Positions 17,121 through 29,993 of a stretch of 64,000 bases of DNA are shown piece by piece. The stretch lies in NCBI RefSeq assembly GCF_008709555.1, contig NZ_VYIJ01000001.1:86809-150808 (forward strand), written 5' to 3'. The notes beneath the pieces were generated by a model that saw nothing but the letters and a program-made list of their open reading frames with translations, had not been told where the DNA came from and ran no database searches. Positions within the stretch are counted from its first letter, which is position 1. Each line of letters opens with the position of its first letter. This stretch comes from Thermoplasma sp. (GTDB taxonomy: Archaea; Thermoplasmatota; Thermoplasmata; Thermoplasmatales; Thermoplasmataceae). Both the position numbers and the translations under genes were made by a program.

Positions 17121-18101
17121 TTGGTAGTTGTAGGATTGGATGTAGGTTATGGTGATACGAAGGTAATAGGGGTTGACGGTAAAAGGATACTGTTTCCATC
17201 CAGATGGGCAGTGACGGAGACCGAGAGCTGGGGTATAGGTGGAAAGATACCTGTACTCAGCACCGATGGTGGCCAGACAAAGTTCATATACGGTAAGTAT
17301 GCAAGTGGAAACAACATACGTGTTCCGCAGGGAGACGGCAGACTCGCGAGCAAGGAAGCCTTCCCGCTCATAGCGGCCGCACTCTGGGAATCAGGCATAC
17401 ATAATGACGGTAGCCCAGTCGATCTTGTAATAGGTAGCGGTACACCTCTGGGAACATTCGATCTGGAAGTTAAGGCCGCTAAGGAGGCTTTAGAGAATAA
17501 AGTGCTGACCGTGACAGGTCCTGAGGGTGAGGTCAGGCAGTTCAACATAACCAGGCTGATAATGAGGCCGCAGGGTGTTGGAGCTGCGCTTTACCTGCTC
17601 AATCAGGGAATCATCGAACAGCAGCCAGGTTACGGGGTGGTCATAGATGTGGGTTCAAGAACGACCGATGTCCTTACCATAAACCTCATGGATATGGAGC
17701 CTGTTGTGGAGCTGTCGTTTAGCCTGCAGATAGGTGTGGGTGATGCCATATCCGCGCTTTCCAGGAAGATAGCCAAGGAAACGGGATTCGTTGTTCCATT
17801 TGACCTGGCTCAGGAGGCGCTATCGCATCCGGTTATGTTCAGACAGAAGCAGGTTGGAGGACCAGAGGTTTCAGGTCCGATACTCGAAGATCTTGCCAAC
17901 AGGATAATAGAGAACATAAGGCTCAACCTCAGGGGAGAGGTGGACAGAGTGACCTCGCTGATACCGGTCGGCGGTGGTTCAAACCTCATAGGCGATCGTT
18001 TCGACGAGATCGCGCCTGGCACATTGGTGAAGATAAAACCAGATGACCTCCAGTTCGCAAATGCGCTGGGATACAGGGATGCGGCGGAAAGATCGATGTA
18101 G
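17121..18101 (+). CDS. Archaeal ParM-like actin homolog (matches Ta0583)
   Basis: This 326-residue actin-fold ATPase has phosphate-1 GLDVGYGDTK at 5-14, phosphate-2 VIDVGSRTTDVLT at 174-186 and the adenosine loop PVGGGSN at 282-288. I recognise it as the T. acidophilum actin homolog Ta0583, which is crystallised, closest to plasmid ParM/AlfA-type actins, and polymerises in vitro with nucleotide. Its cellular job is not established as far as I know. It begins with TTG (TTG GTA GTT GTA GGA), set by the upstream AGGTGAT. The next gene follows after 7 bases and encodes an RHH protein, the fold of ParR adaptors. Confidence 0.95.
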   Translation: MVVVGLDVGYGDTKVIGVDGKRILFPSRWAVTETESWGIGGKIPVLSTDGGQTKFIYGKYASGNNIRVPQGDGRLASKEAFPLIAAALWESGIHNDGSPVDLVIGSGTPLGTFDLEVKAAKEALENKVLTVTGPEGEVRQFNITRLIMRPQGVGAALYLLNQGIIEQQPGYGVVIDVGSRTTDVLTINLMDMEPVVELSFSLQIGVGDAISALSRKIAKETGFVVPFDLAQEALSHPVMFRQKQVGGPEVSGPILEDLANRIIENIRLNLRGEVDRVTSLIPVGGGSNLIGDRFDEIAPGTLVKIKPDDLQFANALGYRDAAERSM

Positions 18102-18108
18102 ATAATGC

Positions 18109-18417
18109 ATGACAATACGAATAGTCCTTGACCTGAGCGATGAGGAGAAGAAGATAGTGGATCTGATAAGGATTCAGGGAGAGACATACGTCGATACAAT
18201 CAGAAGGATCATCGAGGACTATTACGAATACCAGCTGGTCAGGGACGCAGTCAATAAAATATACGAAAAGCTTGGTCTTTCTGAGAAGAAGGCCGAAGCA
18301 TCCGATCCTCCGGCAAACGCCCCCGCCAAGAAGGAGGTGGCGATCAGTACCGGGCATCCAGTGAGTGTGACGAAGATAGAGGAGCTTAAGAAGAATCTGG
18401 AAAGCAGATGGAAATAG
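18109..18417 (+). CDS. Small ribbon-helix-helix-like protein, putative partner of the actin homolog
   Basis: The 102-residue protein starts with a strand (TIRIVLDLS), then two helices (DEEKKIVDLIRI and YVDTIRRIIEDYYEYQ), the ribbon-helix-helix order of MetJ/Arc-type DNA-binding dimers. A charged coil (KIYEKLGLSEKKAE), a Pro/Ala-rich linker near 65-77 and a basic tail (KIEELKKNLESRWK) follow. It lies 7 bases after the actin homolog stop, so they are one transcript. In ParMRC systems the adaptor ParR is an RHH protein with a C-terminal tail that contacts the filament, so an adaptor or autorepressor role is a natural hypothesis, though not shown. T-rich sequence at 18421-18450 probably ends the transcript. 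Confidence 0.8.
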   Translation: MTIRIVLDLSDEEKKIVDLIRIQGETYVDTIRRIIEDYYEYQLVRDAVNKIYEKLGLSEKKAEASDPPANAPAKKEVAISTGHPVSVTKIEELKKNLESRWK

Positions 18418-26580: not shown

Positions 26581-26784
26581 ATGCTTGCGTGGATGGTTAA
26601 CTGGGTAAGGGGTATTTCAGCAGCCTTATTGTTCATAGGTCTAGCGTTCTATCTGTCATGGTCTATTCTGTATGATACCTGGTTCGATATTGGTTTATAT
26701 TCATTCACCATAGTCCTGGTGGTCTTCGGTATACTTGGTATAATGCTGACCACAATAAAGGATGAAAACGAAACGACCGCATAA
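26581..26784 (+). CDS. Small two-helix membrane protein
   Basis: The 67-residue product has hydrophobic helices at about 9-28 and 36-57 and a charged C-terminal tail (TTIKDENETTA). TTAAATTTTTAAG at about 26556-26568 gives a leaderless promoter for the ATG at 26581. It lies 20 bases from the convergent end of the VirB4-like operon. In crenarchaeal Ced systems small two-helix proteins (CedA1, CedA2) accompany CedA, so a link to that operon is possible but not supported by strand. Confidence 0.6.
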   Translation: MLAWMVNWVRGISAALLFIGLAFYLSWSILYDTWFDIGLYSFTIVLVVFGILGIMLTTIKDENETTA

Positions 26785-26804: not shown

Positions 26805-28718
26805 TCAAGAGTCGTCTTCGCCCGTTATGAGAAGTTTCATATATTTATCACCGTAGGCATAATAGCATTCTGAAAAATTGCGGTTCTTTCCTCCTGCCAG
26901 CTTTCTCACATCGTCTTCTTCCGGAATATAGCGACGTATCTCGTCCGCCGACATTGCGGATCTGAAGAAGAACCTGTGGACGCTGTTCTCCTCGATGGTC
27001 ATCCCCAACTTTATATCGCTGATGCTCTGCGTTATTATGAAAACCGAAGTTTCAAAATGTCTGGAGTGCCTCACCGTATTCTCTACGATCCTCAGTGCAT
27101 CATCGTTTCTCAGCACCATGTTCGCCTCGTCTAGCAAAATTGTTTTGCGTCCATCAACCCGCGACATGAACTTAGATATTGCCTCTGCTATGGCGATGCC
27201 ATACCTGGCGTCCTTCTCTGCTTGCACCAGATCGTACTTCACAATTAACACGTCGGGTGATCTCATATCGGTATCTTCCCGGATGGCGGTTTCGTTGAAA
27301 ACATAGAGATCGATCTCAATGCAGGCATCCCCGTAGTCCGCACAGTGATACTCATTGAGCGGATCGAGTATCATCAGTTTTGAATACCTTTCTCTGTAGA
27401 CCCTCCTGGAGAATATCTTTGCAAAATACGATTTACCAGATCCAGTTTCCCCGGTGACTATGAAATTGTAAGACGTGTGGGAAAAATAGTCCAGATATAT
27501 GGGTTTGCCTGTATACTCATTGATTCCCAAAAAGATTCCCGCACTCTCCTCTGTGGAGAAGTAGGCCGGAAAGAACGAGCCAATCGAGGGCAGATCCATT
27601 GGATACGGTATGTTTTCTTTGCTAAGGTCAAAGAAATTTTGGACAGACCGCCCTGCCCTGAAACTGACGTTCTTTACCTTCATTCCTGCTATTTTGAGCC
27701 CCCTGTCCAGCTTGGATATCTCGCGCGTCAGTCCATATGGCGTATTGTTCATAACAAGGAAATCCAGGCCGCATGTGAATACATCCGGATTCTCCTTTCT
27801 CGATTCGTTGGAAAGGATCTCAGCCGATCTCATGACCGATCTCAGGTATTCGGTATTCTCCTTACGGCTGCTCCTCTGCCCAAGTTCAAAGGTCAGGTCG
27901 GCGATCTTTGCCGCTGCCGTCCTTACAAGCGCTTTTTTCTCCATGCGCCTGGCGCTGAACTTAATGGCCGTGTTAATATCGCTAATCTCCAGAGCCTCGC
28001 AATAGGATGGAAATATATCTTTCTCGGAGTCCACTAGGCTGAATATCGATATGTTTCTTTCACCAGAAATGTAATTATTTCTTGGATTCATCTTCTTGCC
28101 CGGGAAGAGACTCCCTATCAGTTCAATATCATCGTCGCCGATGCTGAAGGTTAGTCCAGATCTGTCATCCCCCATCAGGAGGTTTCCGGTCGATCCGATG
28201 AGATTTTTATCCTTTTTTTCTTGGTGCCATAGCAGGAGGTATGTGGTATAGTACACCTTTCCACTCAGGTTCGGTAGAACGTCGGCTCTGTCGGCTGCAT
28301 GCGGTATTGAATACGCAGTTACATTGAATCCGGAGTCAAGAATACCAGTTATGAAGGAAGAGATGGCTGAGAAGCTTTCAGGATGGTTATCATAGGCGGT
28401 GTTTAGTCTGGCCACAACCGCAGTTGTTCCTTGCACGTCGATGATAGTGCGATCTCCTGATCTCACGATCTTGGGCCGTGCTACTCTGACTGGTAATATG
28501 CCATGCACCCATGCGACAATGGTATTCCTGGTTTTTGCCCGAATGATGATGATGTATATCGGGACCGCAATGACGGCGTACGGCCCAAATAACCTTATGA
28601 GGATCAGAAATGACGATCCCGAGGCTATCAGTGCAAGCAGTGTTGTCATCGGTATGCCATAGTATTCAGGTCTGTATGCAAGCACGTTTCTCAGCACCGT
28701 TCTCTGGTTGCGATTCAA
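26805..28718 (-). CDS. VirB4/HerA/CedB-like membrane-anchored ATPase
   Basis: The 637-residue protein has two N-terminal membrane helices at about 22-42 and 46-60, a middle VirB4-type region, then a RecA-like motor with Walker A GETGSGKS at 423-430, LDPLNEY at 451-457, Walker B TILLDEA at 526-532 and ITQS at 562-565. This is the layout of VirB4/TraC ATPases of type IV secretion and of the archaeal CedB DNA-import ATPase. It is the last gene of an operon: its ATG overlaps the stop of the VirB6-like gene (28715-28718). It probably drives a DNA or protein channel in the membrane. No relaxase or coupling protein is nearby. Confidence 0.85.
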   Translation of the reverse strand: MNRNQRTVLRNVLAYRPEYYGIPMTTLLALIASGSSFLILIRLFGPYAVIAVPIYIIIIRAKTRNTIVAWVHGILPVRVARPKIVRSGDRTIIDVQGTTAVVARLNTAYDNHPESFSAISSFITGILDSGFNVTAYSIPHAADRADVLPNLSGKVYYTTYLLLWHQEKKDKNLIGSTGNLLMGDDRSGLTFSIGDDDIELIGSLFPGKKMNPRNNYISGERNISIFSLVDSEKDIFPSYCEALEISDINTAIKFSARRMEKKALVRTAAAKIADLTFELGQRSSRKENTEYLRSVMRSAEILSNESRKENPDVFTCGLDFLVMNNTPYGLTREISKLDRGLKIAGMKVKNVSFRAGRSVQNFFDLSKENIPYPMDLPSIGSFFPAYFSTEESAGIFLGINEYTGKPIYLDYFSHTSYNFIVTGETGSGKSYFAKIFSRRVYRERYSKLMILDPLNEYHCADYGDACIEIDLYVFNETAIREDTDMRSPDVLIVKYDLVQAEKDARYGIAIAEAISKFMSRVDGRKTILLDEANMVLRNDDALRIVENTVRHSRHFETSVFIITQSISDIKLGMTIEENSVHRFFFRSAMSADEIRRYIPEEDDVRKLAGGKNRNFSECYYAYGDKYMKLLITGEDDS

Positions 28719-29644
28719 TTCGATTCTCCCCTCCTGTAAGATGCTTCATTCGAATACACCTCACTCCAGTCTATCCTTCTACCACCGGAGACCACGGTAT
28801 CGATCTGCCCACCTATGAAACCGCTGATCAGACCAACAGGTATCCTTAAGGGCTGCATCCTTAGGCCTTCGTTCCTTGTCCAGATAAAGATAAGTGATGG
28901 TATTGCTGGCGCCAGCAGGAAGAAACCAAGTTCGAGAACAGGATCGTATGAAAATATGCTGGCTAGGATCAGATCCATGATCACCGGAACCGGTAGAAAG
29001 TTCAGCTCTAGAAATGTGGTTATGGAACGAAAGAGGTATTCCTGAGTCTTTCCAGTGAACGCTATTGCGGCAAATACCGGTATGATCATCATGAGGAGGA
29101 GTTCTGCCGCCTCCCTGAATATCAGTTCGGCAAGCAGGGAGCTCATGGCTATGAAGTAGCTGGTCAGATAGAGAAAGACGATGACAGTTGACGAAGAATC
29201 CGTCCCGGAAGAAAAGTTAAGGATACCCGTGACGCTGAATACGGAGTACCAGTTTATGCCGGGATAGTTCCATAGATACCTGAAAAGATATTCGGAAACC
29301 AGCGTCAAATAGGTGAGGGCCCTGAAGGTGAATGCAAGTGCAAGAAATGGTATGAGCAGGTTCATAAGCGCGCGTGTTGTCCTGAAGTTCAGCAGGGACG
29401 ATCTCATCGCTATGATAAGGGAGAAAATGATAAGAGACACTGGAATTATGCTCTCATAGACCAGATCTGTTATATGCATATACAGGGACAGGTATTCAGG
29501 CCCAGGATCAAGTATTATGCCGTAAGAATTCTTCGGATCAAGGCCATAGCAAACTATCAGGTGCCATACCGGATCAAGCACCGCCAGGTATATGGCTACA
29601 ATGCCCCTCAATAAATCGTACAAGAGGCTTGAGATTCCGATCAT
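28715..29644 (-). CDS. Polytopic membrane protein, VirB6/TrbL/CedA-like
   Basis: The 309-residue protein has six or seven hydrophobic helices (for example at about 10-32, 64-80, 93-110, 152-170, 180-197, 219-232 and 238-255) and a polar C-terminal tail of about 50 residues with GLISGFIGGQIDTVVSGGRR. Size, topology and place between a two-helix pilin-like gene and a VirB4-type ATPase fit CedA/TedA or VirB6. Sequence identity with those families cannot be judged by eye, so the call rests on topology and operon order. It overlaps both neighbours by 4 bases. Confidence 0.68.
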   Translation of the reverse strand: MIGISSLLYDLLRGIVAIYLAVLDPVWHLIVCYGLDPKNSYGIILDPGPEYLSLYMHITDLVYESIIPVSLIIFSLIIAMRSSLLNFRTTRALMNLLIPFLALAFTFRALTYLTLVSEYLFRYLWNYPGINWYSVFSVTGILNFSSGTDSSSTVIVFLYLTSYFIAMSSLLAELIFREAAELLLMMIIPVFAAIAFTGKTQEYLFRSITTFLELNFLPVPVIMDLILASIFSYDPVLELGFFLLAPAIPSLIFIWTRNEGLRMQPLRIPVGLISGFIGGQIDTVVSGGRRIDWSEVYSNEASYRRGESN

Positions 29645-29916
29645 GATCCTGTTATTATATAATTGAATATGGCGTAGAGAAGGCCACTCACAGCAAGTAC
29701 GTATATGAAAGTCCCTATGGCGGCATTCTTCAATCTTGTCCTGGCGATCATTCTCTTATTCTCGTCTGTGCTGAAAAATTCAAAGGCTATGGGTATCCAG
29801 AGCAAAGATATGAGCACTGCCGAGATGGATATTGCTATCTCGTCTATCCTTGAGAGCACGTTGGAGATATTGTTCCCGCCGCTTGCCAGAAAGGGGATCA
29901 ATAAAATAAGTGCCAT
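29641..29916 (-). CDS. Small VirB2/CedA1-like pilin-type membrane protein
   Basis: The 91-residue protein has an N-terminal hydrophobic leader (ALILLIPFLASGG) that looks like a signal sequence, an amphipathic stretch, then two membrane helices separated by a basic loop, ENKRMIARTRLKN. That is the VirB2/TrbC and CedA1/TedC pilin plan. It heads the three-gene operon. I take the ATG at 29916; TTG at 29925 is an alternative. ATAAATTTATA and TATATATAG (29934-29953) are two possible TATA boxes just upstream. Confidence 0.68.
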   Translation of the reverse strand: MALILLIPFLASGGNNISNVLSRIDEIAISISAVLISLLWIPIAFEFFSTDENKRMIARTRLKNAAIGTFIYVLAVSGLLYAIFNYIITGS

Positions 29917-29993
29917 ATATGTCAATAATTAAACTATATATAAATTTATACTTAATAAATGAAATGTAATTGTTTCAATTATTACAATTTTGG

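Follow-up and report, generated by a model that had tools for sequence, protein, structure and literature searches.

Comparison with described type IV secretion systems

In the literature that we found, chromosomal DNA-exchange machines of archaea that resemble type IV secretion systems (T4SSs) have been described only for the Thermoproteota, namely Ced (CedA1/CedA/CedA2/CedB/CedD) in the Sulfolobales and Ted (TedC/TedA/TedB) in the Thermoproteales, the latter a chromosomal VirB2/VirB6/VirB4 set published as a domesticated T4SS with a VirB4 motor (PMC9905601). Here, we analysed a locus at positions 26805–29916 of a 64,000-nucleotide stretch of Thermoplasma sp. (assembly GCF_008709555.1, contig NZ_VYIJ01000001.1, positions 86,809 to 150,808; the whole stretch is termed the window below), where three minus-strand genes encode a 91-residue pilin, a 309-residue polytopic protein and a 637-residue ATPase. 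Thermoplasma is an acid-loving archaeon. The locus almost certainly encodes a T4SS-type machine; it is real, conserved and minimal, with DNA transfer as its likely function. If so, a resident set in the Thermoplasmatales and in a sister order would take the concept of the chromosomal exchange machine to a second phylum.

The locus itself is not new, as a paper from 2016 on Cuniculiplasma counts a VirB4 and multipass proteins, which are encoded in one cluster, among the T4SS components and mentions a VirD4-family ATPase at another site (PMC5155288). This cluster (CSP5_1185-1189 / CPM_1190-93; arCOG04034 VirB4, arCOG05369, arCOG05340) is very probably orthologous to the Thermoplasma locus. The passage concerned makes no mention of VirB2, VirB6 or VirB3 by name, nor does it deal with the distribution, inheritance or phylogeny of the cluster. 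What is added here are the identities of the parts, a VirB3-like module, the class-wide distribution and evidence for vertical inheritance.

Of the operons found, the one on a Pontibacillus plasmid (L161) comes closest, a T4SS of the monoderm, MPF_FATA-like type of Bacillota with the same order of parts, i.e. pilin, VirB6, PrgI, VirB4 N-domain, VirB4 and peptidoglycan hydrolase, its VirB6, PrgI and N-domain being assigned by position and profile tests. The MPF_FATA-like group, which includes the mycoplasma ICE (integrative and conjugative element) proteins Mbov_0395/0397, is also the source of the best family matches of both the Thermoplasma pilin and the ATPase. In contrast to these systems, the Thermoplasma locus is chromosomal and vertically inherited rather than mobile, and its VirB3, VirB4 N-domain and VirB4 are fused in one protein. 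No VirB8 was identified, the operon holds no relaxase, and the peptidoglycan hydrolase is missing, as is to be expected because Thermoplasma cells are wall-less.

Among archaeal plasmids, pT33-3 of Thermococcus nautili and pMHR1-2 of Haloprofundus encode VirB4 proteins of the same large clade, but these are plasmid-borne. Conjugation of pT33-3 has been shown experimentally (PMC12857230), and in pMHR1-2 the VirB6 gene adjoins its virB4, as in Thermoplasma. Two small two-helix proteins encoded upstream of virB4 in pT33-3 (L166:5169-6078) appeared pilin- or PrgI-like by eye; profiles gave no support for this.

Ced resembles the Thermoplasma locus in that the pilin gene directly precedes the channel gene and in the proposed exchange of chromosomal DNA. 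It differs in its motor, consisting of CedB and CedD rather than of one VirB4, and in CedA2, for which no Thermoplasma counterpart was identified. CedB and CedD are reported each to match a separate portion of the VirB4 N-terminal domain (PMC11868833), a domain that in Thermoplasma is carried by a single protein. The CedB model found no match anywhere in the Thermoplasma genome at 1e-5, and the VirB6 profile matched none of four CedA-carrying Sulfolobales genomes. Ted is, by description, alike as a chromosomal three-part VirB2/VirB6/VirB4 set with a VirB4 motor; it differs by its phylum, by its HerA, ParA and Rad50 neighbours and by tedB often lying apart from tedC/tedA. Judged from profiles and the motor phylogeny, the locus is nearer to monoderm (MPF_FATA-like) T4SSs and archaeal plasmid VirB4s than to Ced. 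A first-pass annotation, made from the sequence of the window, had pointed to the heavy gene exchange with Sulfolobus for which the lineage is noted; nothing in the analysis suggests acquisition from there.

Identity of the three proteins

The ATPase matched Pfam AAA_10 at 1.4e-10. In NCBIfam, VirB4_plasma ranked first (5e-16), TraC and the CD1110 VirB4 family came next, and CedB scored less well (8e-8). An AlphaFold2 model made from 34 homologs (predicted local distance difference test, pLDDT, 88.5; predicted template modelling score, pTM, 0.86) was compared with structures using Foldseek. Ranks 1–18 were all VirB4-containing entries (R388 TrwK and Thermoanaerobacter VirB4), the best match being full-length R388 VirB4 at 1.2e-20 over 710 columns, and HerA-NurA appeared at rank 20. 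A maximum-likelihood tree of motor domains placed all Thermoplasmata ATPases inside a VirB4 clade (support 98/96), which also takes in proteins from Bacillota, haloarchaea, pT33-3 and pNOB8; CedB, the HerA-like and the VirD4-like proteins group separately from it. The first-pass call of a VirB4-type motor is thus borne out by fold and phylogeny, and both Walker motifs lie at exactly the residues it had proposed (Table 1). The core residues of Walker A are invariant (alignment A6).

The pilin consists of two hydrophobic helices with the charged loop DENKRMIARTRLKN between them. Its match to Pfam T4SS_pilin (PF18895; 1.7e-5, 25.3 bits) falls just below the curated cut-off of 26.6, but 36/39 pilin homologs match this family, the best at 4e-8. 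The sole NCBIfam match was the Mbov_0395 T4SS pilin (8e-4), and conversely the Mbov_0395 pilin of the Pontibacillus plasmid ranked first among 653 open reading frames (ORFs) when these were searched with the order-wide pilin profile (1.8e-4). The family-level matches uphold the VirB2-like nature that had been proposed for this protein. Searches of PDB sequences with the pilin profile and with the VirB6 profile returned chance matches only. The pilin is the most conserved part, with a family-wide median identity of 0.50 compared to 0.23 for VirB6 and 0.25 for VirB4.

A second, marginal T4SS_pilin match occurs in the genome (G000:C10:21873-22037, L091; E-value 0.009). In family f3 (L046, L075, L076, L077) the pilin domain forms the C-terminus of proteins of 320–616 residues, i.e. 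of ectodomain-bearing pilins; L046 and L075 have tandem arrays of them. In family f15 (L103, L108, L113) the pilin gene is immediately preceded by genes for large proteins of ~530–1760 residues that carry PKD or Ig-like domains. These are candidate contact proteins.

For the 309-residue protein, with seven hydrophobic segments where six or seven helices had been predicted, no Pfam or NCBIfam model matched, nor did any match its homologs convincingly. However, its AlphaFold2 model (pLDDT 83.6, pTM 0.74) returned R388 TrwI/VirB6 chains at Foldseek ranks 1–7 against the PDB (best probability 0.96), and the best of these matches span most of the chain. Independently, the order-wide profile of this protein retrieved the VirB6 of a haloarchaeal plasmid as rank 1 of 653 ORFs (4.6e-4), a protein which itself matches Pfam TrbL_3 at 4.8e-14. 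Fold, profile link and operon position together support a VirB6-type protein, in line with the initial proposal. Hence, the two smaller proteins match VirB2 and VirB6 and the ATPase lies outside the HerA clade.

A PrgI/VirB3-like module at the N-terminus of the ATPase

The first-pass annotation had noted two helices at the N-terminus of the ATPase. These are present, but a fourth part, PrgI/VirB3-like, had been overlooked. In many relatives from other genera a separate gene corresponds to residues 1 to ~230 of the ATPase; it comprises a PrgI/VirB3-like module and the beginning of the VirB4 N-terminal domain. A module profile built from Thermoplasmata only ranked three bacterial PrgI proteins 1, 2 and 3 of 653 ORFs, above all decoys (E-values 1.2e-6, 2.4e-5 and 0.0016). 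A module profile made without the window's family had eight of that family's modules as the top eight of 2389 ORFs. Across 30 modules, three of them bacterial controls, Pfam PrgI was the commonest family match; single archaeal modules matched it weakly (best 0.0012), so that the assignment leans on the profile tests. On these tests the N-terminal module of the ATPase is PrgI/VirB3-like, in Thermoplasma itself by transitive assignment through its homologs. The claim deserves scrutiny because a paper from 2025 holds VirB3 to be absent from archaea; if true, a VirB3/PrgI-like part is identified there after all.

Distribution and inheritance

Homologs of the ATPase were found in 96/117 genomes of the order (45/51 of the good ones), and all but a few of its genera have the operon. 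The gene order is kept in families f1, f2, f3 and f5. In the window's family, all 40 complete loci show the order pilin, VirB6, VirB4. In 25/40 of them the gene immediately upstream is thioesterase-like, and in 33/40 a gene of 67 codons converges on virB4 downstream. Outside the order, the pilin profile also matched in a second group of the class (family f15), and there the pilin is followed by VirB6, a PrgI-like protein and VirB4. The VirB6 profile, searched against 293 genomes from the phylum, matched no further lineage.

Between two close species the three genes had ratios of nonsynonymous to synonymous substitution (dN/dS) of 0.05, 0.16 and 0.16, with dS values of 0.22–0.30 like those of the flanks. 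Distances track those of two housekeeping neighbour genes (Mantel r 0.64–0.81, p=0.001). The ATPase gene is single copy in the genome, and tblastn of the pilin against PLSDB plasmids gave no match. The constant gene order in the 40 complete loci and the low dN/dS show that the three-gene arrangement is not due to chance. Together with the order-wide presence, the recurring flanks and the Mantel correlation, they show that the locus is chromosomal, resident, vertically inherited and under purifying selection, and not mobile. The residence suspected in the first-pass annotation is thereby substantiated, and synteny in other Thermoplasmatales, which it had named as a check, extends across families rather than being confined to one strain.

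The unlinked VirD4-like ATPase

As had been stated initially, no VirD4 is encoded in the window, and in the genome no PF03432 relaxase was found; however, a VirD4/TrwB-like ATPase of 637 residues is encoded elsewhere in the genome, outside the window (G000:C41; L171:7770-9683). It matches TrwB_AAD_bind at 1.1e-9 and TraG-D_C above cut-off, groups with VirD4 in the motor tree and is predicted to be soluble, without any membrane helix. In the T4SS-bearing genera g2, g5 and g14 no counterpart was detected, while the virB4 of family f5 is immediately followed by a gene for a VirD4-like ATPase. Across nine relatives PF03432 gave one sub-threshold match; other relaxase families were not searched. 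A gene for a 208-residue protein precedes the unlinked ATPase, whose C-terminal part appears nuclease-like by eye.

Proposed mechanism and alternative explanations

We propose a chromosomal, vertically inherited, minimal monoderm-type T4SS, composed of VirB2, VirB6 and a VirB3:VirB4 fusion, that passes DNA (probability roughly 0.65). The operon would be read as one leaderless transcript. VirB4, held by its VirB3-like module, would assemble beneath the VirB6 platform, and ATP hydrolysis would pull membrane-embedded pilin into a hollow lipid–protein pilus. The complex may then hand single-stranded chromosomal DNA from one wall-less cell to its neighbour, where it could recombine, and may thus work like Ced and Ted. 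DNA is the probable cargo. Import is put forward tentatively as the main direction, at somewhat less than even odds, and is slightly preferred over export because the operon has neither a relaxase nor a coupling protein. The high population recombination in Ferroplasma, a related genus of the Thermoplasmatales (PMC2704941), counts in favour of this proposal, and the machine would offer a candidate route for it. If the proposal is correct, the system, with no more than three genes and with no wall in its way, ranks among the smallest T4SSs and would serve well as a model for experiments.

Several points weigh against it. Pilus and DNA transfer are predicted from the genes, and neither direction nor substrate can be read from the sequence. 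The structural matches of the 309-residue protein to VirB6 have weak E-values (best 0.09). The module of Thermoplasma itself was not retrieved by the profile made without its family (best Thermoplasma E-value 2.4), which is why it is assigned by homology. The Ced membership suggested in the first-pass annotation has to be given up, as hhalign found no relation of CedA1 to the pilin (14% probability) or of CedA to the channel protein (0.1%) and the motor stands in a VirB4 clade apart from CedB. Finally, VirB6 and VirB4 change unusually fast whereas the pilin is conserved, also within Thermoplasma, where the identities between L034 and the window are 68% for the pilin, 36% for VirB6 and 32–34% for VirB4; this contrast is unexplained.

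The same machine could serve purposes other than DNA transfer, such as contact, adhesion or the passage of proteins or metabolites, for instance with the ultra-small ARMAN archaea. We regard this as unlikely, although cryo-tomography shows needles, tubes and pili of Thermoplasmatales penetrating ARMAN cells (PMC4110969). In addition, Patescibacteria possess a comparable VirB2/B3/B6/B4 set, which at least one of them needs for epibiotic growth (PMC12102498, PMC12857230), and in the sister order genes for large surface proteins with PKD or Ig domains precede the pilin gene. The tubes and pili seen by cryo-tomography are, however, tied to no gene, and the operon, present in almost every genus of the order, probably reaches beyond the known hosts of ARMAN. 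A more specific version, in which the four-part T4SS would be a domesticated conjugation machine that builds a needle or pilus contacting and penetrating other archaea including ARMAN, for exchange between species, appears very unlikely. Export of DNA, i.e. chromosomal conjugation with the unlinked VirD4-like ATPase as coupling protein, would be a sub-case of the proposed DNA-passing T4SS with the direction reversed. We consider it doubtful, but it gains some weight from this ATPase with its TrwB-type match and from its counterpart after virB4 in family f5; the unlinked position, the missing membrane helix in the prediction, the non-detection in g2, g5 and g14 and the failure to find a PF03432 relaxase in the genome speak against it.

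Related parts occur on archaeal and Bacillota plasmids, and the locus might accordingly belong to an integrated plasmid or a conjugative element, either still mobile or in decay, as its transfer module. Such an origin is very improbable given the single copy, the invariant order in 40/40 loci, the largely conserved flanks, the purifying selection and the distances that follow housekeeping genes, besides the failure to find PF03432 in the genome or the pilin on PLSDB plasmids. The motor has DUF87/HerA-type similarity, as would a HerA-type DNA-repair ATPase that happened to lie beside two unrelated membrane proteins. This we judge next to impossible in view of the full-length VirB4 fold, the VirB4 clade apart from HerA-like proteins and the conserved operon with pilin and VirB6.

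Gene arrangement, promoter and neighbouring genes

The three overlapping reverse-strand genes were all recovered as ORFs where the first-pass annotation had placed them (Table 1), with overlaps of 4 nt at both the pilin/VirB6 and the VirB6/ATPase junctions. A TATA box lies ~24 nt before the ATG of the pilin gene, a spacing which, for an archaeal promoter, suggests a leaderless operon mRNA. Upstream of it, a 19-nt element (29946–29964) is kept in four Thermoplasma genomes and occurs once in the window, against 0.03 expected; it is a possible regulator site.

Table 1. Positions of the T4SS genes, motifs and promoter elements in the window
Feature	Position	Strand	Remarks
VirB2-like pilin	29641..29916	(-)	91 aa from ATG; 94 aa from upstream in-frame TTG at 29925
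VirB6-like polytopic channel/platform protein	28715..29644	(-)	309 aa
VirB4-type ATPase, N-terminal domain and motor	26805..28718	(-)	637 aa, TTG start
PrgI/VirB3-like membrane module	28494..28718	(-)	~residues 1-75 of the ATPase ORF
Walker A GETGSGKS	27429..27452	(-)	ATPase residues 423-430
Walker B TILLDEA	27123..27143	(-)	ATPase residues 526-532
Putative promoter, TATA box and upstream element	29934..29964	(-)	TATA box TTTATATATA; upstream element TTTCATTTATTAAGTATAA

The two-helix membrane protein of 67 residues encoded at 26581–26784 was considered as a fifth part and rejected. It is present in 51/51 good genomes, also in genomes without a detected T4SS, and in some it is encoded away from the T4SS. 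It is an order-wide protein, and its gene converges with virB4 in most genera. At 17121–18417, the window holds an actin-like gene (ParM/Ta0583-like by eye) followed by a small gene for a likely ribbon-helix-helix protein, and at locus L034 such a pair directly adjoins the T4SS block.

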